Assembly (NCBI RefSeq): GCF_018336815.1
Contig: NZ_CP050497.1
Coordinates: 496,001-560,000 of the forward strand
DNA from: Treponema vincentii
GTDB taxonomy: Bacteria > Spirochaetota > Spirochaetia > Treponematales > Treponemataceae
Reading direction: 5' to 3'
DNA: 64,000 nt
Position 1 is the stretch's first letter, and every line of letters starts with the position of its first letter. The position numbers and the translations under genes were made by a program. Below are positions 499 to 24,763 of this stretch, one piece after another. Below the pieces are notes generated by a model. The model saw nothing but the letters and a program-made list of their open reading frames with translations, was not told where the DNA came from and did not search any database.

Positions 499-780
499 TA
501 TTTCCTTTTGAAAATATGCATACCGTCTACGGCGTTGCCTTGCCAAAAGTGTACATCCTTGTACACTTTTGGCAGCGAAGGGCTGTCCAAAAACTTCAGT
601 TTTTGGACAGTTTCCTTAGATTTAGATGCGATGTTTAAAATTAAGTCATTACTGTGTAAAGACTTGATTTTAAACTCGCGGGGATGTCGAAAAAGTAACC
701 AACTTTTGAGACATCCCCATCGCTTCTGATATAACCAGCGGCATCCGTGCCGCTACTGAAAAAGCCTCAACGTATCAGGA

Positions 781-1033
781 CGGACAGGGATGTCCGGGGT
801 TATAAGCAACAGCGACGTTTTTGCGCAGCAAAACTCGACGTTGAAAAGTGTACACGGATGTACACTTTTCAACATGCCTGCGGGTGTTTTTTGCTCGCGC
901 CTTGTAGTTTCAGAACGGACAAGGATGTCCGTGGTTCAAAACAGAAGCGATGTTTTTGCGATGCAAAAACTCGCGTCCGGAAGTGTACACGGACGTACAC
1001 TTCCGGACAGGCTATTTTCAAAAGGCTGACGGA
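781..1033 (+). ncRNA. Candidate structured RNA with four GGA-loop hairpins (CsrB/RsmZ-like)
   Basis: Two paired modules lie in tandem on the plus strand. Each has a first hairpin (781-796, 915-932; GGACA-NGGA-TGTCC), a middle hairpin with ends GCGA..CTCG, and a second hairpin (840-873, 975-1008; GTACA-CGGA). The GGA loops resemble the CsrA consensus RUACARGGAUGU. A tail AGGCTATTTTCAAAAGGC follows at 1007-1025 and recurs near 24738. A possible terminator follows at 1055-1080. I see no convincing promoter, so transcription is unproven. The alternative is a non-transcribed DNA repeat. Confidence 0.4.
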
Positions 1034-1054
1034 AAAGTTATTTTCAAAAAAAGA

Positions 1055-1080
1055 GGGGCTACGTAGCAACCCCAATTTTT
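1055..1080 (+). terminator. Possible terminator after the GGA-hairpin cluster
   Basis: GGGG (1055-1058) and CCCC (1070-1073) enclose a TACGTA palindrome and are followed by AATTTTT. The stem is short, so this is a weak candidate. Confidence 0.35.
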
Positions 1081-1099
1081 CCGCGGGGTTGTTGTTCTC

Positions 1100-1178
1100 A
1101 TAAGGTGGTTGCAGTCGGCTTTAATACCCTTTGTTACGACGCAAGCGTCGGGGTATTAAACCCTCCGCACGAATAAAT
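1100..1178. repeat. 79-bp repeat, left copy of an inverted pair
   Basis: Nearly identical, in opposite orientation, to 4998-5075: I count two substitutions and one single-base indel. It contains an internal inverted repeat TTTAATACCC / GGGTATTAAA around GACGC..GCGTC. Shorter relatives occur at about 4150 and 32815-32850. The two copies flank a 3.8-kb segment with three genes. Confidence 0.85.
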
Positions 1179-1180
1179 AG

Positions 1181-1196
1181 CCTGATGCGTTTACTC
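1181..1196. repeat. Orphan terminal repeat (CCTGATGCGTTTACTC)
   Basis: Matches the terminal inverted repeat of the MITE-like elements at 6898-7126 and elsewhere, but no partner end is visible nearby. Probably a solo or degraded end. Confidence 0.55.
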
Positions 1197-1291
1197 TGAG
1201 TCGGCCTCTTTATCTTTATATAAAAAAAGAATAAACTCGACAGCTGTCGAATTATTTGCGGCGCAACTCATTTACTCAAAGAGGAACACTC

Positions 1292-2230
1292 ATGGGAAGT
1301 TTAGACTTTTTATCTAAAGATTATCAATTTAAAAAATATAAGAATGTATATGCAGGAATGCTGCAAGGGTTTTATACGATTTTTCACGTAGATGCCAATG
1401 CGAAGAAATGTATCCTTACCATCGGCGCTTCTAAGGCAGAAAATGGAGAAGACTTGTTCGCCCTCTTGCAGTCGCGGCTTTGTGAAATAAAAAAGGTAAA
1501 AACGCGTATCGATAACGCAACATTAATCTTTGAATATCCTACGCCGGCATTAGGGAACTATAAGAAAACATTTGATTTGCTGAATGATACCGTTATCCCA
1601 TTCCTGATAGAAAATAAGTATAAATCCGGCGGATTTATCTATGGTAAAAATGATGGAACGATACGGTTGTTTCAAATAGGACTACAATACCTGTATCTAA
1701 CCGAAGCTGAGCGGGCGGAAAAAGAAGCCGATCTTACCGCTCAAAAAGAAAAAGACAAAAACACGCAAGAAAATTTTTTACTCGGTACATTGGGCGTTAT
1801 CGGCGTTGCATTAGCGGGAATCTTACTGTATGTTATCGTCGGAAAAATGAACCTCTATGTTTGGGCGATTCCAGTCTTACTCAGCGCAATATCCTATACT
1901 GTATACAAACGACTGGGAAAAAAATTAACCGTAAAAGCCATCGTTATGATTTTGATTGTACTGGGCATAGCGCTCGCAGCGGCAACCGTATTGGAATACG
2001 GCTGGCGTATATACGATGCTGTAAATGAGGGTCCGGATATTGAGCATATCGGCTTTTTCGATGTTTTAAAAGAAACGCCGGAGCTTATAATCACCGAACC
2101 GGACATCGCAAAGCTGGTTAAAAGAGATTTATTGGTAAACGGTGGAATTTTAATACTGGCCTCAATTATTACGATAGTAAGCGCTTACAGACAAGAAGTA
2201 CGGTTTATCAAAATAAAAAGATTGGATTAA
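1292..2230 (+). CDS. Hypothetical membrane protein, four predicted TM segments
   Basis: A 312-residue protein I do not recognise. An upstream in-frame start exists at 1256, but ATG 1292 has a good ribosome binding site (AAAGAGG, 7 bases away) and is preferred. The first ~165 residues are soluble and probably cytoplasmic, ending in a charged stretch (AEKEADLTAQKEKDKN). Four hydrophobic segments follow: LLGTLGVIGVALAGILLYVI, LYVWAIPVLLSAISYTVY, VKAIVMILIVLGIALAAATV and GGILILASIITIV. A loop of about 50 residues separates the last two. It lies inside the segment flanked by the 79-bp inverted repeats. Confidence 0.75.
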   Translation: MGSLDFLSKDYQFKKYKNVYAGMLQGFYTIFHVDANAKKCILTIGASKAENGEDLFALLQSRLCEIKKVKTRIDNATLIFEYPTPALGNYKKTFDLLNDTVIPFLIENKYKSGGFIYGKNDGTIRLFQIGLQYLYLTEAERAEKEADLTAQKEKDKNTQENFLLGTLGVIGVALAGILLYVIVGKMNLYVWAIPVLLSAISYTVYKRLGKKLTVKAIVMILIVLGIALAAATVLEYGWRIYDAVNEGPDIEHIGFFDVLKETPELIITEPDIAKLVKRDLLVNGGILILASIITIVSAYRQEVRFIKIKRLD

Positions 2231-2282
2231 GTATAAAAAGTCATTGCATTATAGCCTATGAGAGCCTTGCTGAATGCGGATT

Positions 2283-2432
2283 TTAAGGATTATGAAGCGG
2301 GACATGAAAATACTTACCGCCCCAATCCACATTGAGCAGTTTCTTAAATCCGTTCTTTTGTAAAATTTCCACAGCTGCACGGCTCCATCTCCCTATTCTG
2401 CAAATAACGATAACATTTTTATCGCAGAAATG
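2283..2432 (-). pseudogene. Remnant of a rhodanese-like domain
   Basis: On the minus strand, 49 codons between two stops read as the C-terminal half of a rhodanese domain: DKNVIVICRIGRWSRAAVEI followed by LQKNGFKKLLNVDWGG. CRIGRWS matches the active-site loop CRxGxRS with its catalytic cysteine. There is no start codon, no N-terminal half and a stop directly upstream (TAA at 2433-2435). It is best read as a decayed gene fragment. Its neighbours are unrelated. Confidence 0.65.
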
Positions 2433-2466
2433 TTATAAGGCAATAATCTGTCAGCCTTTAAAATAA

Positions 2467-2496
2467 TTTACAAAACTATGGTAATTATGCTACATT
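2467..2496 (+). promoter_or_regulatory. Predicted promoter of the beta-helix gene
   Basis: TTTACA (2467-2472), 18-base spacer, TACATT (2491-2496). Transcription would start about 45 bases before ATG 2547. Confidence 0.5.
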
Positions 2497-2546
2497 AAAC
2501 ATAAAGGGAAGCACACAAGCATTCTCCCTTAAATTGAGAGGTGTAT

Positions 2547-3854
2547 ATGAAAAAAGCAATTACAACGTGTTTAGCGGTTTGTCTCGTTTTAGCAAACGTA
2601 ATGGCTGCAGAGTACTACGTTTCAAAAGAGACCGGTAAGAATGGAAACGCGGGTACAAAAGATGCTCCGTTTAAAAACATCGAAAAGGCTGCCGAAAAAG
2701 TGCAACCCGGTGATAAGTTATATGTTGCGGAAGGCAATTATTACGGCGTACGGGACAAAGGTTTTATCATGATAAAAAACCCTGTAGAAATCTACGGAGG
2801 ATATTCCAAAGACTTTTCAAAACGGGACGTTTTAAAATACCGCACGCTCGTTATGCCGCCGGCCTCATCAAACGGAACAGGCCGCGCAAATAAGGCGATG
2901 GAGTTTGATATTAAAGACGGTCAGGGAAAAAAACTTGTCATCGACGGTATCATCTTCGATAAAGGAGCTTCCAACGGTTACCATCCGACAAAAGGCAAAC
3001 CTGCCGGTGTGGAAACCGGTATGCTCATCCTGCCGCCGGGAGAAGGCGTTAATGGCGGTGAAAAATCCATTACAACAGAAAAGGCGATATTCGGCGGCAG
3101 CATTATGAAATGCGATGTGCTTATTCAAAACTGCGTATTTAATAACGCTTCCAATTTTGCCATCCAGTTCGGCGGTTCAGGCGATGTTAAAATTTTGAAT
3201 AATGTTTTTACTGCAAATGCGATGTCTGCTTGCGAAATTTGGGGAAAAGAAAATAAACCGACCGCCATAACGCTGGAGTTCGCATATAATACTGTTTTGT
3301 TTACATGGCCACGCACGCATGCCTTTGAGGATATGGGGTACGGATTCCGCGTTATGACGAAGGTTGAGGTGAATATACACCACAACATTATCGGGCTTTC
3401 TACACTGTCTGCAATCGATCGCTGCCGTATCGACAGCCCTGCTTCTATGGAAAACGGACGAAAGGTACTTGTAGATAACAATCGATTTTTTATGAACAAA
3501 CAAGCGGATGTAACCCTGCCGGGCTTAGGTACATTTGAATACGTATGGGTAAAAGACTTTGAAGACGTTGAACGCTTTAACAGCGCCGAAGGCAACGAGG
3601 AGCTGAAAGACGTAGCTCCGCTTAAAAAAGTTTTAAACCAAGCATATTTGGCAGGTTTCTTAAACGCTACCTATAAAGAAAAAACCGACTATGATCCGAA
3701 TTCCCCCGCTAACGAGTTCAGACGCGCAATGGGAATGAACCAAACGATGAAAGTTCAAACTGATGTGTCGATGTTTGCAAACAGATATCCGCAAGATGAT
3801 GCTGTAAAACTGTTCGGTGCAGTCAAAGGCTTCGGCGCACAGGCGATTAAGTAA
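2547..3854 (+). CDS. Exported parallel beta-helix (DUF1565-like) protein
   Basis: A 435-residue protein with a signal peptide (KKAITTCLAVCLVLANVMAA) and a mature start EYYVSKETGKNGNAGT. That start, followed by APFKNIEKAAEKVQPGDKLY and VAEGNYYG, is typical of DUF1565 / right-handed parallel beta-helix proteins. The middle holds irregular helix rungs (VLIQNCVFNNASNFAIQFGG, VKILNNVFTANAMSACEIWG, VNIHHNIIGLS). Such folds often bind or cleave polysaccharides, but no catalytic motif is visible. ATG 2547 follows GAGAGG; a GTG at 2541 is the longer alternative. Confidence 0.75.
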   Translation: MKKAITTCLAVCLVLANVMAAEYYVSKETGKNGNAGTKDAPFKNIEKAAEKVQPGDKLYVAEGNYYGVRDKGFIMIKNPVEIYGGYSKDFSKRDVLKYRTLVMPPASSNGTGRANKAMEFDIKDGQGKKLVIDGIIFDKGASNGYHPTKGKPAGVETGMLILPPGEGVNGGEKSITTEKAIFGGSIMKCDVLIQNCVFNNASNFAIQFGGSGDVKILNNVFTANAMSACEIWGKENKPTAITLEFAYNTVLFTWPRTHAFEDMGYGFRVMTKVEVNIHHNIIGLSTLSAIDRCRIDSPASMENGRKVLVDNNRFFMNKQADVTLPGLGTFEYVWVKDFEDVERFNSAEGNEELKDVAPLKKVLNQAYLAGFLNATYKEKTDYDPNSPANEFRRAMGMNQTMKVQTDVSMFANRYPQDDAVKLFGAVKGFGAQAIK

Positions 3855-4151
3855 ATGTAATCGCAAGACTGGCGGAAAAGGTTGGCATCTTGTCAGTAGA
3901 AGCGACGATTTGAGAGTATTTCGCTCAAAATTCGTTGTATTGGTAATTAACCTGTTCGAAAACATCGCATTTCAGAGCAGGTTACCCTGAAATGCGATGT
4001 TCAAAATCGTGCTATCTGTGCGATTTTGAACACGCTCGACGGGAATAGCGAAAAAGTAACAAACTCTTGGGACGTCCCCGTCAAGTGTATTCATCGAAGC
4101 TGATTCGAGTTGGGTTGATTCTGTAGAGTCCATATCCTCACGTTATCGGCT
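3855..4151. repeat. Repeat-rich intergenic region
   Basis: No gene is visible. Three strong inverted repeats lie here: ACATCGCATTTCAG..CTGAAATGCGATGT (about 3962-4002), GTTCAAAATCG..CGATTTTGAAC (about 4001-4034), and a hairpin near 4039-4084 whose loop GAAAAAGTAAC also occurs at 689-699. The second has the outer context GCGATGTT..AACACGCTCG, the same conserved ends as the middle hairpins of the paired GGA modules. Confidence 0.7.
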
Positions 4152-4985
4152 TTAATACCCCACATACTGACCGGCCGGATAGATACATCCTGCGCATGCA
4201 ATATCGGCGGAACACCCTGCCTGCACCCATACCGGCTTAAAATAATTTCCGGAAGCCGGTTTGATTTTTTGTATGATGCCGTCGGGACAATGAATTGAAA
4301 CAGGCACTCGTTTTTCCGGTGAATGAGATGAATGTTCGCCGATTGCTGCGGAAGAAAGCAATTCGCACACCCGCGTCAAGAAAGCGATTCGTTCTTCAAG
4401 CTCAAAGATAAAACGGGAATAAAAAGCGAGCACCCCAAAGTCATTGCCGGAAAGTGCACTTTGCTCAAGCTGCTGCAACAAGCCGCTCAATATTAGAAAG
4501 GCAGACTTCGCTTCTTGATAGCGGGCAGCGGAATACTTGCAGCCGTACACCTGTTGCAGCACTGTCTTGAGTGTTTCCGCATCGTTGTATATATGCACAG
4601 TTTTTTGCGTACACTGCCGGAATGCGGTTTCGACGGCAGGGCAACAGCCGTCAAGTACATACATCTTGGAAGAATACAGCAGCGGACACTTTTGCGTCGT
4701 TAAATATATCACCGTACTCTTGATTGCATCGCAGGCAGGATAATCACCATATTTAAAAATAAAGGCGTCCACTCCGACAATCGGCACCGGCACAAGACCG
4801 CAGCCGTAGATGAGCGCCTCGTCGATGACGGGAGACTGAGCTTCCGAATACGCAGAGCCGAACAGCCCAACGATATTATCATCCGCCTGCATCCGCAGCG
4901 TCGCATCTATATATGCCTCCCTACGGAGATCGGGTGCATAGTCAATTATTTCCTGTAATGAAGCATGCTTAAAATCTAATTCCAT
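4152..4985 (-). CDS. Possible 2-hydroxyacyl-CoA dehydratase (HgdB-type) related protein
   Basis: A 277-residue protein. The N-terminal part (VGLFGSAYSEAQSPVIDEAL, then IYGCGLVPVPIVG) and the cysteine spacing (YPACDAIKST, TTQKCPLLYS, LDGCCPAVE) resemble the 2-hydroxyglutaryl-CoA dehydratase D-component family, whose cysteines hold an iron-sulfur cluster. It is shorter than the usual 380-430 residues, and its stop codon lies in repeat sequence (CTTTAATACCCC), so it may be truncated. I see no Shine-Dalgarno; the upstream DNA is the 79-bp repeat. The family call is weak. Confidence 0.45.
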   Translation of the reverse strand: MELDFKHASLQEIIDYAPDLRREAYIDATLRMQADDNIVGLFGSAYSEAQSPVIDEALIYGCGLVPVPIVGVDAFIFKYGDYPACDAIKSTVIYLTTQKCPLLYSSKMYVLDGCCPAVETAFRQCTQKTVHIYNDAETLKTVLQQVYGCKYSAARYQEAKSAFLILSGLLQQLEQSALSGNDFGVLAFYSRFIFELEERIAFLTRVCELLSSAAIGEHSSHSPEKRVPVSIHCPDGIIQKIKPASGNYFKPVWVQAGCSADIACAGCIYPAGQYVGY

Positions 4986-4997
4986 ACGCCGATCGTT

Positions 4998-5075
4998 TTA
5001 TTCGTGCGGAGGGGTTAATACCCCGACGCTCTGCGTCGTAACAAAGGGTATTAAACCCGACTGCAACCACCTTAT
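4998..5075. repeat. 79-bp repeat, right copy of an inverted pair
   Basis: Reverse complement of 1100-1178 with two substitutions and one indel. Immediately downstream (5110-5129) lies a further CCCCGACGC..GCGTCGGGG hairpin of the kind also seen at 32828-32848. Confidence 0.85.
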
Positions 5076-5168
5076 AGAACACACAGTGCGAAACATTGAG
5101 CACTGTGCCCCGACGCTTGCGTCGGGGTTGTTGATTCCTTTTCAAATTCTCGCTTTTGTAATTCACAA

Positions 5169-6596
5169 CTATTCATTCAATTCCCAATATCCGTTATTTC
5201 CGGTACCGATATATCGTAAATTCTCTATCTCTTTTATGGTTCTCTGGATAGTTTTTACACTTACGCCGGCACTATCTGCAATAGCTTGTCTTGTAATCTT
5301 ATTATTTGACCTCACCTTTGCCTTTATAAATTCAATCAGCTCCTTCTTATTGTGAGGGACATTCTGAGGGACATTCTGAGGGACATTCTGAGGGACATTT
5401 TTTTCGCCGACTTTTTCTGTTGCAATCTTCTTGAGTGGAATAATCGTTCTGAATATATCTCCTTCTTCAAAAATAGGATTTTTTCCCGAATACAGTTGTG
5501 TGTACTTATAGGTGTTACGCATACCGGAACCAAGCTCATCGGCAATTCCAATTTCCCTAAAGACTTTAGATATCGACGGATTTTTAGGAAACGGTTCGAA
5601 TTTTTGCAAATCCAATACGCCTATTCTATGTGCTACATTGCTATTTTCGATAGTAATTTTTTCATCATCAATAATCATTTTCGCAGGAAAGCCGCTTGAA
5701 TAATCCCTGTGGGCTAATGTGTTGGAAACTACTTCTCGGAGTATCCTATCTCTTGCATTGACATTAACAATGCCCTCTAAAACAAACAAGTCATTCAAAT
5801 GCTTTCTGCCAAAGTTGATAAGCCTATCATAACTGTCAATCAGATTGGTAATGACGACATCTCTGTCATCATATCGGTCTTTGTTCTCTACTCTAAATAG
5901 TGCATCCGTTTTATGCTGTGATAAAACGGACATAATGGCGTTGTCTTTTCCAAATAATAAAATTGCAGCTAAGGTAATACCTTCTTTGTTTGTTTCCGGA
6001 TCAATTAAAATTAAATTAGCTGTTCTCAGAAGTTCTTCATCATTCATACCCTTCCATAAATGATTTTGATTCCTTGCAATAGCCATTTTTCGTGCTTTTT
6101 CAATTACCGCTGAGTTTAAACAATCTATTCCCAAATTAGGATAGACCTTATTTACAAAATAGGTGCTTTGTTTCCGCGCATAAAGCTTATATACCAGTTC
6201 CGCATTATCGGTAATATTTATATCACCCTCGTAAGACCTATCCCAAATGCGTCCATTGTGCCTGCACACCTGACAGCCTTTTGGTACTCTGATATAAATA
6301 AGCTTCTTGCCTTCCATATCTATTGAAACAGGTGTTAAGTATAAAGGCGGATATATTTTTTGCGAATTATTAATAGCTGTTGTAAATTCCTTTATTATTT
6401 TATCAACCTTGTCAGGATTAACGCCGGTAATTTCCCTTTTGTCGTTAACTCCTAATACTATATGACCGCCGTTTCTATTGTTAAAAGAACAAACGGAATC
6501 ATATACGTCTTTCGATAAAGCATTCTTTGATTCTTTAAATTCAACATCTATTTTTTCACCGTTTTGAATGAGTTTCTTTATTTCTTCTGGTGTCAT
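5169..6596 (-). CDS. AlbA_2 / Schlafen-like transcriptional regulator with HATPase_c_4 domain
   Basis: A 475-residue protein, often annotated as a RecG-like regulator. The N-terminal AlbA_2 domain is shown by EKIDVEFKESKNALSK and NRNGGHIVLGVNDK. A central HATPase_c_4-type region includes REVVSNTLAHRDYSSGFPAK and FREIGIADELGSGMRNTYKY. The C-terminus is a winged helix (TRQAIADSAGVSVKTIQRTI). A linker carries four in-frame copies of NVP(Q/H) from a 12-bp tandem repeat. Its role is probably DNA binding and regulation, target unknown. ATG 6596 follows AAGGAG. It is flanked by repeats on both sides, as expected of an accessory gene. Confidence 0.8.
   Translation of the reverse strand: MTPEEIKKLIQNGEKIDVEFKESKNALSKDVYDSVCSFNNRNGGHIVLGVNDKREITGVNPDKVDKIIKEFTTAINNSQKIYPPLYLTPVSIDMEGKKLIYIRVPKGCQVCRHNGRIWDRSYEGDINITDNAELVYKLYARKQSTYFVNKVYPNLGIDCLNSAVIEKARKMAIARNQNHLWKGMNDEELLRTANLILIDPETNKEGITLAAILLFGKDNAIMSVLSQHKTDALFRVENKDRYDDRDVVITNLIDSYDRLINFGRKHLNDLFVLEGIVNVNARDRILREVVSNTLAHRDYSSGFPAKMIIDDEKITIENSNVAHRIGVLDLQKFEPFPKNPSISKVFREIGIADELGSGMRNTYKYTQLYSGKNPIFEEGDIFRTIIPLKKIATEKVGEKNVPQNVPQNVPQNVPHNKKELIEFIKAKVRSNNKITRQAIADSAGVSVKTIQRTIKEIENLRYIGTGNNGYWELNE
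5353..5400. repeat. 12-bp tandem repeat, four copies
   Basis: Four units of TGAGGGACATTC (the last ends TTT) inside the AlbA_2 gene encode NVPQ-NVPQ-NVPQ-NVPH. Copy-number change would alter linker length by four residues without a frameshift. Confidence 0.9.
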
Positions 6597-6662
6597 AATT
6601 CTCCTTATGCTGATTTTATCACGCCAAGAGCTTATTTTCCATACCGGAATATTTATCGGCAG

Positions 6663-6696
6663 GGCAACCGCATTAAAAATATTTTTAGCGGTTGCC
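6663..6696. repeat. Hairpin GGCAACCGC..GCGGTTGCC
   Basis: GGCAACCGC and GCGGTTGCC enclose ATTAAAAATATTTTTA. A near copy with one arm changed lies at 16893-16926. Both are followed by TTCCTTCTGTGCGAAATTT, showing a shared larger unit. Confidence 0.75.
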
Positions 6697-6721
6697 TTCC
6701 TTCTGTGCGAAATTTCATAGG

Positions 6722-6865
6722 TATAAGGTGAGCGTCTACAATGACGCCGCTCACCTTAACCGTCAAGTTTTCTTTCGAAAACTTGCGTATTGATGTGTGC
6801 GCTTTTCGCGCACGAATGCAACAGTTTCCAAAATTCATATTTTGTTCAACTGTTGCATTTTAAGG
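6722..6865 (-). repeat. Structured repeat, copy A (related to the rpmH leader)
   Basis: Four hairpins in a row match 33091-33230: a first stem AAGGTGAG..CTCACCTT, then GTTTTCTTTCGAAAAC, then GTGCGCTTTTCGCGCAC, then AATGCAACAGTT..AACTGTTGCATT with an inner CAAAAT/ATTTTG. In the other copy the loops and joins are kept while several arms change on both sides (GTTCGC-TTTC-GCGAAC; ATGCGCGTTTCGCGCAT). That is covariation, which suggests selection on RNA or single-stranded structure. Strand is assigned by analogy with the GGA modules and is uncertain. Confidence 0.6.
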
Positions 6866-6897
6866 AAATAAAATTTCGCACATTTTTTTCAACAGGC

Positions 6898-7126
6898 GGG
6901 TAAACGCATCAGGTAGAGTAAATAAAAACCGCGGAAAAATTGAGACTGTGAGACCATTTGAACCATCTTCAACTGTTGTACATCCATGTACATCAGTTGA
7001 AGGCGAGTTTTGTGCACGCACAAAACATCGCTACTATATGGAACCACTGCCATCCTTGGCAGTTCTGGTCGAATAGTATCGATTTTTCCGCGGGAATGTT
7101 AAAAAAACGACCTGATGCGTTTACCC
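6898..7126. mobile_element. MITE-like element E1 with 17-bp terminal inverted repeats
   Basis: Ends are GGGTAAACGCATCAGGT and ACCTGATGCGTTTACCC, a perfect inverted repeat, 229 bp in all. An inner inverted pair CCGCGGAAAAAT / ATTTTTCCGCGG lies inside. There is no transposase. The centre carries a paired GGA-hairpin module. A promoter for the flavodoxin-ABC operon begins 11 bp outside the right end. Confidence 0.8.
6967..7063 (-). repeat. Paired GGA-hairpin module inside E1
   Basis: Read on the minus strand: hairpin 7063-7046 (CTGCCA-AGGA-TGGCAG), a middle hairpin 7031-7003 with ends GCGATG..CTCGC, and hairpin 7002-6967 (16-base arms, one mismatch, loop TGGA, context GTACATGGATGT). The order and spacing equal those of the plus-strand modules at 781-1008 and 24648-24737. 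Confidence 0.7.
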
Positions 7127-7136
7127 TGATTTATCA

Positions 7137-7166
7137 TTTGCATCGGTATCTGAAAAGTAGTACAAT
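7137..7166 (+). promoter_or_regulatory. Predicted promoter of the flavodoxin-ABC operon
   Basis: TTTGCA (7137-7142), 18-base spacer, TACAAT (7161-7166), leaving a leader of about 75 bases before ATG 7250. Confidence 0.5.
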
Positions 7167-7249
7167 CGTTCCATTAAAAACACACGAGTGCCGGATAATG
7201 AGAACACATTGCTCGACATGGAGTTTTAACATTTTTATCGGGAGATTTT

Positions 7250-7708
7250 ATGAAAAAAGCGGCTATTATCTATGCATCGGTTCATCATGGAAATACGGAA
7301 AAAGTAGTTACGGCAATGGCACAAGATATGCCGGTAACGCTGTTTAAAGTAGAGCAAGCTCAAAATATCGATTTTTCGGAATATGATTGTGTAGGCTTTG
7401 CTTCGGGAATATATGCGGGAAGATTTCATAAATCGATATATGCATTTTTGAAACATCACCGGCATAAACTTCCGAACCCTGCCTTTGTCGTATGTACAAG
7501 CGGAATGGGAAAAGGTCGGTATGCGAAAAAATTTGCCGGTTATTTACAGTCAAACGGATTTACCGTATTGGGTGAATTTGAATGCAAGGGATTTGATACT
7601 TTCGGTCCATTCAAGCTGTTCGGCGGCTTAGGCAAAGGACACCCTGACGATAAAGAGCTTGCAGACGGGGTTGCGTTTATTCAGAAGATTATGCTAACGT
7701 CTATCTAA
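7250..7708 (+). CDS. Flavodoxin family protein
   Basis: A 152-residue FMN-binding electron carrier of the flavodoxin fold. The N-terminal IIYASVHHGNTEKVVTAMA matches the phosphate-binding loop (S/T-x-T/H-G-N-T). Later segments YDCVGFASGIYAGRFH, FVVCTSGMGKGRYAKKFAGY and LGEFECKGFDTFGPFK fit the remaining strands and flavin loops. Start ATG 7250 follows GGGAG. It sits 20 bp before a metal-siderophore/cobalamin-type binding protein gene, which suggests (inference) a role in reductive iron release or in low-iron metabolism. Confidence 0.85.
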   Translation: MKKAAIIYASVHHGNTEKVVTAMAQDMPVTLFKVEQAQNIDFSEYDCVGFASGIYAGRFHKSIYAFLKHHRHKLPNPAFVVCTSGMGKGRYAKKFAGYLQSNGFTVLGEFECKGFDTFGPFKLFGGLGKGHPDDKELADGVAFIQKIMLTSI

Positions 7709-16036: not shown

Positions 16037-16839
16037 AGTCCTCCTAGAATCGAGTAGAGCATTAAAATACTACCGACACCGAACGCAATGGCAATTGCAA
16101 CAAGAACCGCCTCTCCGATACGTGCGATTCCGGAGAGTAAATCGCCTGAAATAAAGTCTCTAATTCCTGCGGTAAATGCAACGCCGGGAACAAGGGCAAG
16201 TGCGGCGCCGACGATGATATTGTCAAGATTATCAACTAATTTAATTTCAAAGGATATAATGGAAATAATTCCCACAAACATACTTGCAACAAAATTACCG
16301 GTAAAAACGGTACGGGAACGAGCCATTATTTTATCGCTGATAAAAACGGCAATATATGAGGCAAAAAATGCTGCGACAAAATCTCCGAATTTTCCGCCTA
16401 CTAAGACCGCAAAAAGACCGCATCCGATACCGGCAGCAAAGAGAACAAACCTGTATGGATAACCTTTGTATTGATCTATTTTGCGTAAGCAATCCATTGC
16501 TTCGGATATATCAATACGACCTTCCACAAAATTACGGGAAAAATCACTCACTAATGTAATTTTAGCAATATTGTTGCTCCGTTTTTTTATATTTTTTGTA
16601 TAGAGTACGTTTTCGCCGTCACCGTTTGCAATAAACAGTACGGTGGGCGTAACAAACGGAGTAATATCGTGGATGCCTCCCGCTTCGCTTATCCGCACAA
16701 TCGTTTCCTCGGCGCGGTACATCTCTGCTCCGTTCCGAATAAGAAGCTCTCCGGCATAGAGCGCTATCTGCATTACTAAAGCATGCCGAGCGAGGGGATT
16801 GTCCTTTTCCCTAGCTACAATATCCGACTGGGTATCCAT
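16033..16839 (-). CDS. Threonine/serine exporter large subunit (ThrE/DUF1212)
   Basis: A 268-residue membrane protein. The N-terminal cytoplasmic DUF1212 domain includes GELLIRNGAEMYRAEETIVR and ITPFVTPTVLFIAN. About five TM segments follow, with the family signature AALALVPGVAFTAGIRDFIS and GDLLSGIARIGEAVLVAIAI. The family exports threonine and serine, although the substrate here is inferred. It overlaps the small subunit by ATGA. Its promoter (TTGCCA-17-TACAAT) lies so close to ATG 16839 that the mRNA leader would be only about four bases. Confidence 0.88.
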   Translation of the reverse strand: MDTQSDIVAREKDNPLARHALVMQIALYAGELLIRNGAEMYRAEETIVRISEAGGIHDITPFVTPTVLFIANGDGENVLYTKNIKKRSNNIAKITLVSDFSRNFVEGRIDISEAMDCLRKIDQYKGYPYRFVLFAAGIGCGLFAVLVGGKFGDFVAAFFASYIAVFISDKIMARSRTVFTGNFVASMFVGIISIISFEIKLVDNLDNIIVGAALALVPGVAFTAGIRDFISGDLLSGIARIGEAVLVAIAIAFGVGSILMLYSILGGL

Positions 16840-16926: not shown

Positions 16927-16979
16927 TTCCTTCTGTGCGAAATTTTGCTTAAAATTTCGCACATTTTTTGGGGGCAGAC

Positions 16980-17125
16980 GGGCAACCGCATCAGGTATAG
17001 TAGATAAAAACCGCTGAAAAATTGAGACTGTGAGACCATTTGAACCGCGAAGAGGTTCAACTCTGGTTGAACAGTATCAATTTTTTCCGCGGGGTTGTTA
17101 AATAAATGCCCTGATGCGTTTATCC
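16980..17125. mobile_element. MITE-like element E2
   Basis: Ends GGGCAACCGCATCAGG and CCTGATGCGTTTATCC are an imperfect inverted repeat; length is 146 bp. Inner arms GCTGAAAAATTGA and TCAATTTTTTCCGC recall E1. The centre holds the segment TTGAACC-GCGAAGA-GGTTCAAC-TCTG-GTTGAAC, also in E3 and E4. Its right end is two bases from the stop codon of the Smr gene. Confidence 0.75.
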
Positions 17126-17127
17126 TG

Positions 17128-17634
17128 TTAATACTTTAGTATTACCCACGTCGACCCTGTCCCTCCGTCGCGTCCTTTGGGGTGTCCCGTTTCACCGGCA
17201 TGGATATTTGTTTCCAAAAACTTTTGTACGAACCGCGCTAATACAGGTCCATTTTGAGAATGATTCCCTTTCCCGTGGATGATGAGAATTTTTTGATACT
17301 CTCTGCGAACGGAATCTTCGAAAAAAGTAACCAGTGCACTGTAGGCTTCTTCAAGTGTCATGCCGTGTAAGTCGATTTCTGCTTGCGGGCGCATTGCCCG
17401 TAACCGCCGTTTTTCGGCAAGAGTATCAGTCTGAGTACTATCTTCAGAACCATTAGAATCTTTATCATAGACACCGTAGCGCCGCAACCAATAATCCATC
17501 GGATTTAAAGTTTGGGTATTTTCAGCCGTATATGCTATGGCTATCGGATTTTTTGCATCGCTTTGCATCCTTTTTTTCCCGTAAGGATGCTGAGTTTGTA
17601 TTTCCCATTGATTAAGGATCGCTTCAAAGTTCAT
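17128..17634 (-). CDS. Smr-domain protein
   Basis: A 168-residue protein with a C-terminal Smr (MutS2-related) domain. AEIDLHGMTLEEAYSALVTF gives the LDxHG motif, and ILIIHGKGNHSQNGPVLARF and STWVILKY complete the fold. Smr domains can nick DNA or cleave RNA; stand-alone bacterial versions have been linked to RNA cleavage in ribosome rescue. The N-terminal half is low-complexity. ATG 17634 has a strong Shine-Dalgarno (GAGGAGG). Confidence 0.88.
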   Translation of the reverse strand: MNFEAILNQWEIQTQHPYGKKRMQSDAKNPIAIAYTAENTQTLNPMDYWLRRYGVYDKDSNGSEDSTQTDTLAEKRRLRAMRPQAEIDLHGMTLEEAYSALVTFFEDSVRREYQKILIIHGKGNHSQNGPVLARFVQKFLETNIHAGETGHPKGRDGGTGSTWVILKY

Positions 17635-17710
17635 GGTACCCTCCTCAGAGGAATGAAAGTAAACAGATAAACAATGAAAGGTATAAAACGTTTCATTGAT
17701 ATTTTATTTT

Positions 17711-19678: not shown

Positions 19679-19685
19679 GTTGTTA

Positions 19686-20852
19686 CTATTTTATAGCAGC
19701 TTTTAAAGCGTCAACTTTATCGGTTTTTTCCCAGTTGAATTCAGGGCGGCCGAAGTGTCCGTAGGCGGCAGTCGCTTGATATATGGGTTTGCACAAATCG
19801 AGTGTTTTAATGATACCGGCAGGACTGAGGTCGAATACCTGCTGAACGGCTTGTTCGATTGCACCTTCCGACACTTTTGCAGTACCGAATGAATCTACCC
19901 GAATCGACACGGGGAACGGTACACCGATAGCGTAAGCGAGCTGCAATTCGCACCGTTCGGCAAGATCGGCAGCAACGATATTCTTTGCAACATAGCGCGC
20001 CATATATGCAGCTGAGCGGTCTACCTTGGTCGGGTCTTTACCGGAAAAGGCGCCCCCGCCGTGCCTACCCATACCACCATAGGTATCTACAATAATCTTC
20101 CGCCCCGTTAAACCGGTGTCGCCGAACGGACCACCGATAACAAAGCGTCCGGTAGGGTTAATAAAGAATTTAGTTTTTGCATCTAGTAAACCGGTCGGTT
20201 CAAGGACGGGTTTGACGATATTTTCGATAATCGCTTCTTTTAGTGAAGCATAAGAAATTGCAGGGTCGTGCTGATGAGAAATAACGACCGTATCGATACG
20301 CACGGGTTTATCGCCTTCATATTCTACCGTTACCTGACTCTTTGCATCGGGACGCAGCCAATCGATCTCTTTTGACTTACGCAGCTGCGAAGCCTTGCGC
20401 AGCAGCTTATGCGCATACATGATAGGGGCAGGCATCAATTCCGGCGTTTCTTTACACGCATAGCCGAACATCATCCCCTGGTCCCCTGCGCCCATTTGGT
20501 TCTGATACTCGCTGAGGCCGGTACCGTTGACCCCCTGTGCAATGTCGGGGGACTGAGCGTGAATCATGCTTAAAACAGCCATAGAATTGCAGTCAAGTCC
20601 GAATGCAGAATCGGTATAGCCGATTTCCCGTGCAATATTGCGGGCTGTTTGCTGTATATCAACAAAGGTACTGGTGGTAATTTCTCCACCGATAAGAATG
20701 AGCGCGGTTGAAGCAAACGTTTCGCATGCAACATGACTTTTAGGGTCGTCGCGCAAACAGGCATCCAACACTGCATCAGAAATTTGATCACAAAGTTTAT
20801 CGGGATGGCCTTCTCCGACCGATTCCGAGGTAAATAATTTATGTTCGTTCAT
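19686..20852 (-). CDS. metK: S-adenosylmethionine synthetase
   Basis: A 388-residue cytosolic enzyme making SAM from methionine and ATP. Signature motifs are [16 protein letters not shown] near the N-terminus, [12 protein letters not shown], and the glycine-rich [22 protein letters not shown] 20852 follows GATAGGAG; an ATG five codons upstream is less likely. I see no SAM riboswitch in the leader; the promoter appears to be at 20892-20920. Length is normal for the family. Confidence 0.97.
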
Positions 20853-20891
20853 TATTACTCCTATCATTAAAAGTGTTATGAAGCAGCCGCT

Positions 20892-20920
20892 ATCATACTG
20901 TTATCGGTCTAAATGTACAA
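20892..20920 (-). promoter_or_regulatory. Predicted metK promoter
   Basis: On the minus strand: TTGTAC, 17-base spacer, TATGAT, about 40 bases before ATG 20852. A terminal repeat of element E5 begins 14 bp further upstream. Confidence 0.5.
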
Positions 20921-20933
20921 GCTACGGGAAGGA

Positions 20934-21126
20934 AGGTAAACGCATCAGACGCTTGTTTATATCTTCCCGTAAAATCAGGTGGCTGTTCAAGCAGAGTAAC
21001 GCCAAGGAATTGCCATCCGTGTCAATTCCTTGGTTGCCGGTTTTTTAAAAACCGGTTTCCGTTTAGCACCACTGCCATCCTTGGCAGTTCTGACTGCAAT
21101 TCAAATGCTTGCCCAACCACCTGATT
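20934..21126. mobile_element. MITE-like element E5, one outer end missing
   Basis: The left end AGGTAAACGCATCAGA (20934-20949) matches the family terminal repeat; no right partner is visible. An inner inverted pair AATCAGGTGG (20973-20982) and CCACCTGATT (21117-21126) encloses a paired GGA-hairpin module and a CCGGTTTTT..AAAAACCGG hairpin (21038-21056). Confidence 0.65.
21002..21088 (-). repeat. Paired GGA-hairpin module inside E5
   Basis: Minus strand: hairpin 21088-21071 (CTGCCA-AGGA-TGGCAG, the same 18 bases as at 7046-7063), a middle CCGG-ended hairpin, then hairpin 21033-21002 (14-base arms, one mismatch, loop CGGA). Confidence 0.7.
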
Positions 21127-21176
21127 GTGCGATTTGTATCTACCGAGAGAGGAAACTTAGAGCGGACATAAAAAAA

Positions 21177-21268
21177 CCGGGAGCACTACGGCACAAGAAG
21201 AATTAATCTACCGCTGCTTCCTTCCGGATCTGACGGGGTTTGAAAAACCTTCTTTGCATAGGTCCCGG
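21177..21268 (-). ncRNA. ffs: Signal recognition particle RNA (4.5S, small bacterial type)
   Basis: The minus-strand transcript starts CCGGGACC and ends GTGCTCCCGG, forming the closing stem. The conserved SRP domain IV is present (GTCAGATCCGGAAGGAAGC followed by AGC). A T-run follows the last stem base and acts as terminator. Only two bases separate it from the upstream tRNA-Ser(GGA), so it must be released by tRNA processing from a common transcript. Its protein partner Ffh is encoded at 43768-45093. Confidence 0.93.
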
Positions 21269-21270
21269 TA

Positions 21271-21357
21271 CGGAGAGAGAGGGATTCGAACCCTCGGTAC
21301 CCTTTCGGGCACACACGACTTCCAATCGTGTACCTTCGACCACTCGGACATCTCTCC
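21271..21357 (-). tRNA. tRNA-Ser(GGA)
   Basis: Acceptor GGAGAGA/TCTCTCC with discriminator G, anticodon loop TTGGAAG, long variable arm, T-loop GGTTCGAATCCC. CCA is not encoded. The 3' end lies two bases from the SRP RNA. Confidence 0.95.
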
Positions 21358-21449
21358 AAAGTGTTGAAAGCACCTGAAAGTATTGAAATTTTCAGGGTGT
21401 TTCGGAAAGTGCATAAAGAAGATGCTTGGCTGCGTTGCTCCGTTAAAAA

Positions 21450-21534
21450 CGGAGAGAGGGGGATTCGAACCCCCGGTACCTTGCGGTACAACGGTTTTCG
21501 AGACCGCCCGATTCGACCGCTCTCGCATCTCTCC
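21450..21534 (-). tRNA. tRNA-Ser(CGA)
   Basis: Acceptor GGAGAGA/TCTCTCC, anticodon loop CTCGAAA, long variable arm, discriminator G. CCA is not encoded. Confidence 0.95.
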
Positions 21535-21541
21535 AGTAGCA

Positions 21542-21616
21542 TGAGACTAGGCGGGCTCGAACCGCCGACCTTCAGATCCGCAATCTGACGCTCTAATCCA
21601 ACTGAGCTATAATCTC
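21542..21616 (-). tRNA. tRNA-Arg(GCG), copy 3 in transcription order
   Basis: GAGATTA acceptor pairs with TAGTCTC, discriminator A. The anticodon loop TTGCGGA gives GCG, and A20 in the D-loop fits arginine identity. Identical to the copy at 21633. Confidence 0.9.
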
Positions 21617-21632
21617 AAAAATAAATAACCGA

Positions 21633-21707
21633 TGAGACTAGGCGGGCTCGAACCGCCGACCTTCAGATCCGCAATCTGACGCTCTAATCCAACTGAGCTA
21701 TAATCTC
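21633..21707 (-). tRNA. tRNA-Arg(GCG), copy 2
   Basis: Identical to 21542-21616, including the flanking AAAATAAATAACCGA spacer; the repeat unit is 91 bp. Confidence 0.9.
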
Positions 21708-21723
21708 AAAAATAAATAACCGA

Positions 21724-21798
21724 TGAGACTAGGCGGACTCGAACCGCCGACCTTCAGATCCGCAATCTGACGCTCTGATCCAACTGAGCTATAATCTC
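21724..21798 (-). tRNA. tRNA-Arg(GCG), copy 1
   Basis: Differs from the other two copies at two positions, one in the T-stem/loop region and one in the D-loop; anticodon GCG is kept. Confidence 0.9.
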
Positions 21799-21872
21799 AA
21801 ATATCCCCGATATGCTTTGTCCATTAATGCATTCTTACCGCTTAATGCACAACAATACCCGGTTTTATCTTA

Positions 21873-21959
21873 CGGAGCAGGGGGGATTCGAACCCCCGGT
21901 ACCCGGATGGGTACAACTCCTTAGCAGGGAGCCCGATTCGGCCACTCTCGCACCGCTCC
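21873..21959 (-). tRNA. tRNA-Ser(GCT)
   Basis: Acceptor GGAGCGG/CTGCTCC with discriminator G, anticodon loop CTGCTAA, long variable arm. CCA is not encoded. Confidence 0.95.
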
Positions 21960-22030
21960 AAAGTTATTGCCTGTCTAAGTTATCGGTTTTATATACGCAC
22001 ATATAAAGGAACGTGCCGCCCTTTATTTTA

Positions 22031-22115
22031 CGGAGCAGGGGGGATTCGAACCCCCGGTACCTCGCAGCACAACGGTTTTCAAGACCGCCGCCTTAAACCA
22101 CTCGGCCACCGCTCC
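22031..22115 (-). tRNA. tRNA-Ser(TGA)
   Basis: Acceptor GGAGCGG/CTGCTCC with discriminator G, anticodon loop CTTGAAA, long variable arm. First gene of the cluster; a good promoter lies 13 bases upstream. Confidence 0.95.
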
Positions 22116-22128
22116 ATAATCGGCTTAT

Positions 22129-22158
22129 ATATTAGCCTAGAATAACGCCGAATGTCAA
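22129..22158 (-). promoter_or_regulatory. Predicted promoter of the tRNA-SRP RNA cluster
   Basis: On the minus strand: perfect TTGACA, 18-base spacer, TAATAT, 13 bases before tRNA-Ser(TGA). No terminator is visible until after the SRP RNA, so the eight RNAs may form one transcript. Confidence 0.65.
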
Positions 22159-22360
22159 GACTATCGCTCAAACCGTATCGATTTTTCTATTTAATAGCCC
22201 ATAACAGCGCATGTAAAAAAAATTATAAATTTTTTTGCAAAAATACCGTAAATTTCCAGCCATTTTTAAATGAATGCTTTATATAACAGGTACTACAAGA
22301 TCAAAAGAGACCGGAACCGCAGCGAGCGGGAATTCGGTTCTCTTATTTTAGGAGGCTATT

Positions 22361-22771
22361 ATGCACAATTTGAATTCGTTGATCATTGAGGGAAATGTGG
22401 TTCGCGATCCCGTGGTAAAGGCAACGCCTAAAGGGACGCCGCTCTGTGTATTCTCTATCGCTTCGAACCGCTTTTTTAAGCAGGAAGATCAAACAACACA
22501 GGAAACTTCGTTTTTTGATGTTGAAACGTGGGCACGCTTAGCGGAACTCTGCGGGGAGAATTGCACAAAAGGCCGCGGAGTACGGGTTGTCGGACGTTTA
22601 AAGCAAGACCGCTGGGTAGGTACCGATGGCAAACACTACAGCAAGATTAAAGTAGTAGCCGAGCACATCGAGTTTAAGCCCTTGTTTAAAAACGGGAAAC
22701 AGCCTGCCGATGCATTAGACGATATGCGTGAGGAGACCGTCCCTGAAAAAGAGGCTGTACCTGCCTTTTAA
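22361..22771 (+). CDS. ssb: Single-stranded DNA-binding protein
   Basis: A 136-residue OB-fold protein. N-terminal NSLIIEGNVVRDPVVKATPK and the central FFDVETWARLAELCGENCTK and VVGRLKQDRWVGTDGKHYSK match bacterial SSB. The tail is short and acidic (DDMREETVPEKEA) and ends VPAF, not the usual DDDIPF, but a terminal hydrophobic Phe is kept. Start ATG 22361 follows AGGAGG. Confidence 0.92.
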   Translation: MHNLNSLIIEGNVVRDPVVKATPKGTPLCVFSIASNRFFKQEDQTTQETSFFDVETWARLAELCGENCTKGRGVRVVGRLKQDRWVGTDGKHYSKIKVVAEHIEFKPLFKNGKQPADALDDMREETVPEKEAVPAF

Positions 22772-22778
22772 AAAAAAT

Positions 22779-22808
22779 GCCGGTGGCTCCATATTTAGAA
22801 CCACCGGC
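22779..22808 (-). terminator. Intrinsic terminator between converging ssb and malic enzyme genes
   Basis: GCCGGTGG and CCACCGGC form the stem; on the minus strand it is followed by ATTTTTTTT. An A-tract before it on the plus strand means it acts mainly on the malic enzyme transcript. Confidence 0.75.
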
Positions 22809-22843
22809 AGATAGTATGTTGCTAACACAAAGTCTCAAAAGTA

Positions 22844-24343
22844 TTATTTGCTACGCTGATTTTTGATTTGTTCGATTGCGTAGTCCATCGCTTGATTAAA
22901 GAAGTCTTGCGGAGGTTCTTTGATAAATCCGCTATCCATCAGCTGCTGCGTCAGCGCTCTGCTTTCTGCAATCTCGGCCTTAGCCTGCTTAAACGCTTCA
23001 TCCCATGTAATGGTGATACGGGCAAGACCTTCTTTTATCGCCTGCATTGCGACATCGGCCGCTTCGACGGCAAAGACATCTTCATCATCCATCTTTACAA
23101 CGATGTTTTCGGGATCAATGCCTTTTTTCTCCGAATAGTCGGCAATGGAGTGCGCACAGCGGATAGCCATACCGTCGGAAATCTTCCGTGCACGAACCAA
23201 CAACGCACCTTTCAAAATTCCGGGGAAGCAGACGGAGTTATTGATCTGGTTCGGGAAGTCTCCGCGCCCGGTACCGGTAATAAAGGCGCCGGCAGCTTTG
23301 GCATCGTGCGGCCAAATTTCGGGAACGGGATTTGCGCAGGTAAACACGATGGGTTTATCGCCCATAGAGGCAATTTGCTCTTTGGTTACCGTGTTGGGAC
23401 CCGGTTTGGACAGAGCGATCAGCACGTCGGCGCCTTTTAGCGCTTCGTTAAAGTCGTTTATCCGGTTGGGGTTTGTCGCTTGACACAGCTCCCACTTGCG
23501 GTAATAACGTGTGTCGGCTTTGATGTCTTCCCTGCCTGCATGGAGCGCACCCTTGGAGTCGCAAATAATCATCTTTGCGGGATCTCCGCCGTCCTGCAGG
23601 ATGAGGCGTGCAATCGTCGTGTTGGAAGCGCCTGCACCGAGAAGTACAATGCGGCAGTCTCCAATTTTTTTACCGGCAAGTTTCAGCGCATTGAGTAAAC
23701 CGGCAAGCGTAATACAGGCCGTTCCTTGAGCGTCGTCGTGCCAAACAGGAATGTCGCATTCTTCCCGCAGCGTATCCAGAACTTTAAAGCAATCCGGCTG
23801 CTGAATATCTTCCAGATTAACTGCGCCGGCGCTCGGTTCCAGCATTTTCACAAAATCGATAATCTTATCGGGGCAATGTTTACCGGCGGGGAAGTTGTAT
23901 TTCTTTTCTTCATTCGGCTTGACGTAGGAATCGATACAGATGGGATAGGCGTCCACACCGCCTAAGTACTTCATCAGCATACATTTACCTTCCATAACAC
24001 CAAGTCCGCCGGAAGGAGAACAATCCCCGTCGCCCAGTACGCGGGTGGAATCACTGACAACCGCTACAAGATTCCCTCGATTGGAAAGCATAAAGGAGCT
24101 GTCGTGATTATCGCGGATACCGGTAGAAACGGCGGATACGCCCGGCGTATACCAAACGTTAAACCAGTTAAATCCGTAAATCCCGCATTTTGGGACGGTT
24201 TGCAGTTTTCCGCCATAAAATTCGTGTGTTAACAGTGAAAGTTTTTTTAAAAACAGCGTTTTCGCCGCCGCTTTTTCATTTTCCGTAAAGTCGGAAGGGA
24301 AGTGTTCCGTAATAGATTGTAAATCTTTATTGATAGTTTTCAT
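22844..24343 (-). CDS. NAD(P)-dependent malic enzyme
   Basis: A 499-residue enzyme decarboxylating malate to pyruvate. Family motifs: YTPGVSAVSTGIRDN, SNRGNLVAVVSDSTRVLGDG, the catalytic/metal region VKMLEPSAGAVNLEDIQ and IPVWHDDAQGTA, and the nucleotide site RIVLLGAGASNTTIARLIL. It is slightly longer than small bacterial malic enzymes because of a C-terminal extension. It supplies pyruvate and reducing power. Its promoter leaves essentially no leader before ATG 24343. Confidence 0.9.
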   Translation of the reverse strand: MKTINKDLQSITEHFPSDFTENEKAAAKTLFLKKLSLLTHEFYGGKLQTVPKCGIYGFNWFNVWYTPGVSAVSTGIRDNHDSSFMLSNRGNLVAVVSDSTRVLGDGDCSPSGGLGVMEGKCMLMKYLGGVDAYPICIDSYVKPNEEKKYNFPAGKHCPDKIIDFVKMLEPSAGAVNLEDIQQPDCFKVLDTLREECDIPVWHDDAQGTACITLAGLLNALKLAGKKIGDCRIVLLGAGASNTTIARLILQDGGDPAKMIICDSKGALHAGREDIKADTRYYRKWELCQATNPNRINDFNEALKGADVLIALSKPGPNTVTKEQIASMGDKPIVFTCANPVPEIWPHDAKAAGAFITGTGRGDFPNQINNSVCFPGILKGALLVRARKISDGMAIRCAHSIADYSEKKGIDPENIVVKMDDEDVFAVEAADVAMQAIKEGLARITITWDEAFKQAKAEIAESRALTQQLMDSGFIKEPPQDFFNQAMDYAIEQIKNQRSK

Positions 24344-24349
24344 AGGATA

Positions 24350-24378
24350 AGTGTAGCACGGTTATACTGTCCCTGCAA
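24350..24378 (-). promoter_or_regulatory. Predicted leaderless promoter of the malic enzyme gene
   Basis: On the minus strand: TTGCAG, 17-base spacer, TACACT, then TATCCT and ATG 24343. No Shine-Dalgarno is present. Confidence 0.55.
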
Positions 24379-24647
24379 GCTATCCTTTTGAAATATACGA
24401 CGCATCTGCGTTGTCGCTTAACAAAAAACAGTCCTCGACGTACAACAAGTACGCCTGCGGGTGTTTTTTGTACGCTCCTAGCATCTGCATCATCTATTTC
24501 AAAAGGCTTACGGAAAGGATGAACAGTAAATGCCGCTACTGCAATAAATGCTCGACGTACAACAAGTACGCCTCCGCTTTATTTTTGTTCGCGCCTTGTA
24601 TCCGGTATCACTATTTTCAAAAGGCTTACGGTGAAAGACTTTTCAGA

Positions 24648-24763
24648 ACGGACAGGGATGTCCGTGAAATTGAGCAGCAGCGAGTTTGCCCCGCAAACTC
24701 GACGTTGAACAGTGTACACGGAAGTACACTGTTCAACAGGCTATTTTCAAAAGGCTTACGGAG
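24648..24763 (+). repeat. Paired GGA-hairpin module with conserved tail
   Basis: ACGGACA-GGGA-TGTCCGT (24648-24665), middle hairpin CGAGTTTGC-CCC-GCAAACTCG, then a 34-base hairpin 24704-24737 (GTGTACA-CGGA, one inner mismatch), followed by AGGCTATTTTCAAAAGGCTT as after 1008. Confidence 0.75.

Follow-up and report, generated by a model that had tools for sequence, protein, structure and literature searches.

The window analysed here, a stretch of 64,000 bases (C1:496001-560000) of the single-contig genome of Treponema vincentii (2,711,688 bases; G000 in the comparisons below), contains dispersed hairpins with GGA in their loops, most of which are the outer hairpins of TD-2 (RF03162), a family of Rfam type Gene; sRNA that shares clan CL00124 with TD-1. 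All twelve hairpins reported by the first-pass annotation, which had been made from the letters of the window, were found in place, the long ones being listed among the repeats as well, and they pair into six units (Table 1). The typical unit spans about 98 nt, with a short hairpin at its 5' end (P1), then a linker and a middle hairpin (P2), and a long hairpin at its 3' end (P3). Four of the six units exceeded the gathering cut-off of the TD-2 covariance model (48.7 bits) with 66.5-75 bits. The minus-strand units 541-754 and 20998-21092, with the same twin loops and an altered middle, fell under it, and no TD-2 match up to E 1 was obtained for 20900-21160. Such relatives with altered middles, under the cut-off or without an Rfam match, set the window apart from TD-2 as catalogued, while Rfam's own consensus likewise shows two six-base loops (AuGGAu and AcGgAU). 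The only Rfam matches at cut-off in the window were to TD-2, TD-1, signal recognition particle RNA and tRNAs. Between the GGA hairpins of the 541-754 unit, three more strong hairpins (583-610, 633-675 and 680-718) occupy 575-736, and in 780-877 the middle hairpin was absent from the predicted optimum fold.

Table 1. TD-2 units, TD-2-like units and their hairpins in the window (bits, score against RF03162)
Feature	Position	Strand	Basis	Parts and loops
P3-like 3' hairpin of minus-strand twin unit	541..574	-	14-bp stem in hexaloop frame	loop AAGGAT
Weak Rfam TD-2 match over the 541-574 unit	537-642	-	30.8 bits, under cut-off	
P1-like 5' hairpin of the 541-754 unit	737..754	-		loop ACGGAT; middle 583-718 replaced by other hairpins
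TD-2 unit	780..877	+	RF03162 75 bits; alignment; fold	P1 781-796 (AGGGAT), middle hairpin, P3 840-873 (ACGGAT)
TD-2 unit	915..1012	+	RF03162 70.6 bits; fold z -7.86	P1 915-932 (AAGGAT), P2 ~947-974, P3 975-1008 (ACGGAC)
TD-2 unit	6964..7063	-	RF03162 66.5 bits; fold	P1 7046-7063 (AAGGAT), P3 6967-7002 (ATGGAT)
TD-2-like twin unit, unrelated middle hairpin	20998..21092	-	fold	P1 21071-21088 (AAGGAT), P3 21002-21033 (ACGGAT)
TD-2 unit	24648..24741	+	RF03162 71 bits; fold	P1 24648-24665 (AGGGAT), P2 ~24681-24701, P3 24704-24737 (ACGGAA)

The sequences that the first-pass annotation had quoted, GTACAAGGATGTAC for the minus strand of 541-574 and GTACACGGATGTAC for the plus strand of 840-873, are exact. 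Its invariant four-base loop NGGA holds for the GGA part, whereas what stays constant is a frame of six bases, A-N-GGA-N (A.GGA. below), in which the A is kept even where the outer A-U pair is broken, as in 975-1008 and 24704-24737. Scanning the window for hexaloop hairpins with perfect stems of at least 5 bp yielded 14 with A.GGA. on one strand, the commonest pattern (the next was found six times), compared with a mean of 0.45 and a maximum of 3 in 100 dinucleotide shuffles. These comprise 11 of the twelve hairpins noted earlier, 21002-21033 being absent because of its stem mismatches (6967-7002 has mismatches as well), and three short, isolated ones (16487-16502, 27057-27072 and 34864-34879) that may be chance occurrences.

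Across the genome, at least 136 TD-2 matches exceeded the cut-off, among 150 scored out of 699 first-look candidates. The 150 were distributed over both strands (78 +, 72 -) and formed 97 clusters of up to six matches, a cluster being defined by position on the genome; GGA hairpins number two per unit. The window and 40 further stretches (779,554 bases) picked for their TD-2 matches make up the 843,554 bases analysed below; they hold 133 of the 150 matches (17 lie outside) and, because of how they were picked, the censuses of arms and stems represent a non-random sample of the genome.

Hairpins in these copies were located by stem alone, and those with odd loop lengths or weak stems were dropped (30 of 133 for P1, 7 of 133 for P3). 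The loop of the 126 P3 hairpins kept reads ACANGGANGU, with A in 126, G in 123, G in 125 and A in 125 (whole GGA in 121) and with closing bases C in 124 and G in 125, while both N positions show all four bases (second N: T 71, C 31, A 18 and G 6). The 103 P1 hairpins gave A in 96, G in 98, G in 99 and A in 95, with A.GGA. in 93; the N was lost in 10 of 107, leaving AGGAT or AGGAA. CsrA sites follow an A(N)GGA rule in which the N may be absent, and these loops agree with it. When strict perfect stems were required, 79 of the 133 copies had two or three sense A.GGA. hairpins, 45 had one and nine none, and an antisense A.GGA. hairpin occurred in five. Loops free to vary had been named in the first-pass annotation as an argument against its CsrA-site reading; instead, 68 of 70 TGTAC-N6-GTACA sites read A.GGA., and the same frame was found between the arms TTGAC/GTCAA (8/8), CGGAC/GTCCG (14/14), GCGGC/GCCGC (25/28) and CGCC/GGCG (37/50). 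Hexa-frame hairpins with a perfect stem of at least 13 bp carried it in 99 of 110 cases, those of at least 7 bp in 121 of 321. Among 246 A.GGA. hairpins with stems of at least 5 bp, 55 lie outside Rfam TD-2 matches; 30 of these are no more than 250 nt from another such hairpin, so that many probably represent units that went unrecognised.

Covariation was analysed by aligning 33 copies, namely the 30 with the highest scores, 780-877 among them, and the window's other three Rfam units. Eighteen of 20 pairs changed on both sides with 98.3% of the cells paired, a level that none of 500 shuffles reached; the loop columns A, G, G and A had entropy 0 in both hairpins, and the N columns were the most variable loop columns. 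The distance from GGA to GGA was 60-68 nt (median 65; 93 copies measured). Although they covary, the stems of the own-genome copies consist almost entirely of Watson-Crick pairs and contain very few G-U pairs. A comparison with 20 stretches of a related genome (G006), in which 4 of 80 tested clusters (97 in all) were usable, included one copy common to both (1947125), where the N and stem letters differ and A.GGA. is kept in both hairpins.

The CsrA site obtained by systematic evolution of ligands by exponential enrichment (SELEX) is RUACARGGAUGU with an ANGGAN hexaloop (PMC7652899), and CsrA/RsmE sites are described as CANGGANG apical hexaloops (PMC4894983). The TD-2 hairpins follow this rule, having a CANGGANG hexaloop in a hairpin with N and stem letters free. 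Judged by sequence, the identity of these hairpins as CsrA-type sites is well supported, the TD-2 loop being nearly invariant where CsrA would read it and free where CsrA would not. As the first-pass annotation had expected of a treponeme, the genome has both csrA and fliW, with one match each, adjacent at C1:937773-938314; the 73-residue CsrA retains an arginine that, in an alignment made by eye, lines up with R44 of the E. coli protein.

Seven of the 55 non-TD-2 A.GGA. hairpins lie at a called gene start (gene calls were self-made and approximate, with stricter scoring in a second round), three of them at two neighbouring flagellin genes. One flaB leader contains CTGAAAAGCACGGATGCTTTTCAG and, after it, CATTTCATGGAGGAAATG, which has part of the Shine-Dalgarno sequence in its loop, and the other contains CCGGCATGGATGCCGG about a dozen bases before its Shine-Dalgarno sequence; a third, split flagellin match (C1:944959-945370) is outside this comparison. 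Of five flagellin leaders inspected by eye in related genomes, three, namely L138 (G014), L139 (G032) and L140 (G033), had an ANGGA hairpin, its loop being seven bases long in the first two, and no such hairpin was seen in L142 and L143. For T. denticola, in which csrA adjoins fliW, a link between CsrA and flagellin has been proposed, with sites close to the flaB1/flaB2 Shine-Dalgarno sequences (PMC9481697). Because the same A.GGA. hairpin stands in two flagellin leaders of the genome itself, the TD-2 hairpin is, going by its letters, of the flagellin-leader type. The CsrA-type sites proposed in the first-pass annotation are thus borne out as to sequence, by the nearly invariant A.GGA., the free N and the hairpin shared with two flagellin leaders.

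TD-2 is present in several genera. Among 59 related genomes, 24 had a TD-2 match and 19 had one over the cut-off; seven genomes (G000 and six others) had at least 48-56 each among the matches listed, and G003 had 105 in a wider listing. In other genera, the loci compared were the best listed matches of G003 (20 of 105), G034 (20 of 44, one stretch, L234, being covered in part), G015 (5 of 20) and G021 (14 of at least 54). Of these, 20/20, 14/20, 4/5 and 11/14, respectively, had one or more A.GGA. hairpins, with unrelated stems, and where a locus had two or more they were on the same strand in 33 of 34 loci. Likewise, of 53 best-match loci from the 24 genomes, weak matches included, 36 carried A.GGA. 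hairpins; 23 of these carried two or more, always on a common strand. Two genomes, G014 and G032, have TD-2 at E 0.001 or better, and csrA was not found in them; neither was fliW nor the weak third-class Flagellin_N match, taken for FlgL, that is present in G000 and G033, while each has three strong flagellin matches. As that gene, fliW and csrA are neighbours in G000, the absence of csrA is likely due to an assembly gap; completeness is 63% for G032 and is listed as 99% for G014.

Quite probably, the units are dispersed twin-site CsrA-binding RNA modules that titrate CsrA. Each unit of about 98 nt would present two CsrA-type hairpins (P1 CANGGANG and P3 ACANGGANGU) about 65 nt apart via the middle hairpin, and, if transcribed, would offer a CsrA dimer two high-affinity sites. 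Together the units would compete for CsrA with its mRNA targets, in the first place with flagellin leaders, and would thus serve, alongside FliW, as a dispersed reservoir or sponge for CsrA. Since the same hairpin precedes two flagellin genes, the repeats may soak up CsrA if transcribed; we infer transcription, CsrA binding and titration. That most of the hairpins belong to TD-2, and that the unit is a two-site module, and one that spreads as a repeat without significant orientation bias, had gone unnoted in the first-pass annotation.

Several observations weigh against this reading. As to structure, 27 of 266 own-genome hairpins lack GGA in the best-stem loop (several of them being fused or degenerate copies), most SELEX winners have far shorter stems than the 14 bp of P3, the four TD-2 units of the window fold about equally well on both strands, and the GGA-GGA gap of 60-68 nt is at or above the limit of the bridging range reported for CsrA, 10 to 63 nt between GGA sites (PMC7652899). 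G-U pairs are scarce (23 G-T compared with 14 A-C mismatches in 102 P1 and 118 P3 hairpins from the 133 copies, p 0.19, no significant excess), which is odd for a stem under purely RNA-level selection and suggests that copying at the DNA level contributes to keeping the stems perfect. As to gene context, 112 of the 133 copies could be classed (15 were at stretch edges and 6 overlapped open reading frames, ORFs), and the upstream gene was co-directional in 61 of 112 (p 0.40) and the downstream gene in 48 of 112 (p 0.16), neither being a significant bias; regions between tandem genes had 20 copies in the same and 20 in the opposite orientation. A simple regulator is further at odds with an in-frame, sense copy (C1:139876-139969) inside an ORF (C1:139574-141286, minus strand) and with an array (1518303-1519101) of about 838 bases in G000 compared with 463 in G006, between flanks of 94-96% identity. 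Among related genomes, no TD-2 was found in G005, a 1.1-Mb genome of the same genus in which csrA and fliW are present; having csrA and having TD-2 show no significant association (22/51 compared with 2/8 among the 59 genomes, p 0.45), a comparison that is uninformative because csrA is found in 51 of the 59; and G009, which has csrA, carries repeats that share the architecture and the middle hairpin and have other loops. Scanning 28 of the 29 G009 matches, 15 loci in their core and 13 further ones, brought up no A.GGA. hairpin; a laxer scan gave one in the 299 bases of L188. The G009 sister repeat (L046, L106, L178 and L188-L202) has the same middle hairpin, CGAGTTTTCG..AAAACTCG, and a 3' loop like GCYATTTYAG in place of ANGGAN. 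Kissing loops were considered for the non-GGA repeats of G009, G020 and G023; a few loop pairs hinted at them and were not upheld by eye in more copies.

Alternatively, each copy may act in cis, marking its own mRNA for CsrA-dependent stability, termination or translation control, which we hold to be rather unlikely. Most copies are intergenic and 6 of 133 overlap called ORFs, one of them in frame and sense, which would suit such a role, as would the CsrA binding within coding regions and between genes reported for Campylobacter (PMC4894983). The even split of orientations between tandem genes speaks against it, and so does the higher density of TD-2 between convergent genes (16 of 54 regions of at least 100 bases compared with 40 of 261, p 0.018). 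A signal of read-through transcription was also sought in the orientation of the 112 classed copies and was dropped, no significant bias being found.

The units may instead be a selfish palindromic DNA repeat whose loop is read by a mobility protein as single-stranded DNA or a cruciform tip, with the likeness to CsrA sites coincidental. This we regard as improbable, although the TD-2 units, by their distribution, behave like mobile repeats: the in-frame copy at C1:139876-139969 is missing from its G006 homologue (one filled/empty pair, flank identity about 75%), and the varying array, the lack of orientation bias, the excess between convergent genes, the few G-U pairs and the G009 sister repeat with other loops all favour it. 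However, the loop fits the CsrA rule at its fixed as well as its free positions, including an A that is kept without a partner, and the same hairpin recurs in two flaB leaders, which are not TD-2. REPINs and other repeats mobilised by RAYT transposases are, like TD-2, short dispersed intergenic hairpin pairs; they differ in that the GGA loops of both TD-2 hairpins are on the same strand, and PF01797 (Y1_Tnp) gave no match in G000 and matches in 5 of 14 control genomes, which rules against RAYT mobilisation. It is highly improbable that the hairpins have a structural role in DNA or RNA, for example as terminators or cruciforms, with no relation to CsrA. The strong stems on both strands and seven terminator-like sites in 490-1320 (shuffle mean 1.0) speak for such a role; against it, only 2 of 133 copies have at least 6 T in the 12 bases around the P3 end, and 99 of 110 perfect stems of at least 13 bp share the A.GGA. 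frame, where free loop letters would be expected.

The surroundings of the units in the window were also inspected. A promoter consensus scan of 490-1320 gave 2 matches (shuffle mean 1.1), not clearly above shuffles. TD-1 RNA (RF03155) is found on the plus strand at 6755-6864 and 33120-33230, followed by TTTTAAGGAAAT, and none of its loops is an ANGGAN hairpin by eye. Segments 6700-7120 and 16930-17130 resemble paralogues: the former has TD-1 (6755-6864) within a TGTGCGAAATTT hairpin and TD-2 within a second palindrome, and the latter shares the outer sequences and has short loops inside them, like an empty version. Near several units (6908, 7110, 1175 and 20935), GTAAACGCATCAG and its complement CTGATGCGTTTAC are found again, possibly as an outer repeat. 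Collection scans for TGTACANGGANGTACA (14 fixed bases) listed mostly chance-level matches and were not used as evidence. In Desulfosporosinus, L330, L332 and L337 have TGTACAAGGACGTACA-type hairpins, directly followed in L330 by a second ANGGAN hairpin, and gave no Rfam match up to E 0.01. One Acidobacteria metagenome-assembled genome (JAJYIU; L281, L298, L318, L331 and L333) contains TGTACATGGACGTACA or a close form with similar flanks on several contigs. Three copies of TGTACAAGGATGTACA lie on one strand within 90 bases of a viral contig (IMGVR_UViG_2648501186_000011, L398, 5900-5987), a possible CsrA decoy.

Among known systems, the TwoAYGGAY motif reportedly consists of two hairpins with GGA loops and in this resembles TD-2, which unlike it takes A, C, G or T before GGA; the window gave no TwoAYGGAY match at the gathering cut-off, the presence of such a model in the library being unconfirmed. 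The motif was named in a 2010 paper (PMC2864571; Weinberg 2010), the text of which mentions neither TD-1 nor TD-2. CsrB/CsrC and RsmY/RsmZ, in which several GGA hairpin loops per RNA can titrate CsrA (PMC7652899), may resemble TD-2 in having several such loops per RNA; unlike them, TD-2 has no known promoter or transcript here. They are encoded by one or few small RNA genes, whereas TD-2 is a dispersed repeat with two sites per unit in a spirochaete host. In Campylobacter, flaA has a pair of ANGGA hairpins, of which the second covers the ribosome-binding site, and its mRNA also titrates CsrA (PMC4894983). Such flagellin leaders (Campylobacter flaA and, as proposed, T. denticola flaB1/flaB2) share the twin ANGGA hairpins with TD-2; the gap is 21 nt there and about 65 nt in TD-2, which is mostly intergenic and has more than 100 copies.

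The system had been put forward in the first-pass annotation as one not known to be described in spirochaetes. Since TD-2 is already catalogued, and most of the hairpins belong to it, the family itself is not new. A literature search by title and start of abstract found no link between TD-2 and CsrA among the papers listed, though the 2017 motif paper was outside its coverage and an earlier link is possible; full-text searches for TD-2 found no paper, and the main text of a study of noncoding RNA in periodontitis (PMC7160235) mentions neither TD-1, TD-2 nor CsrA. What appears to be new is a CsrA-type RNA site in the form of a dispersed repeat.

Read as a reservoir, TD-2 would provide each chromosome with some two hundred CsrA sites or more. 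We tentatively consider it possible that a mobile-like repeat made the flagellin-leader CsrA site into a reservoir, whose copy number, varying between species, would set the balance of CsrA and FliW and hence motility. TD-2, which has no known function in the literature searched, thereby gains a specific candidate partner, and an RNA antagonist of CsrA is suggested where FliW is usually named as the antagonist. If the reading is true, a repeat carries the sites of a regulatory protein by the hundred, so that spread of the element would directly tune a global regulator, and this orphan RNA family would be the RNA arm so far missing from the spirochaete Csr system.

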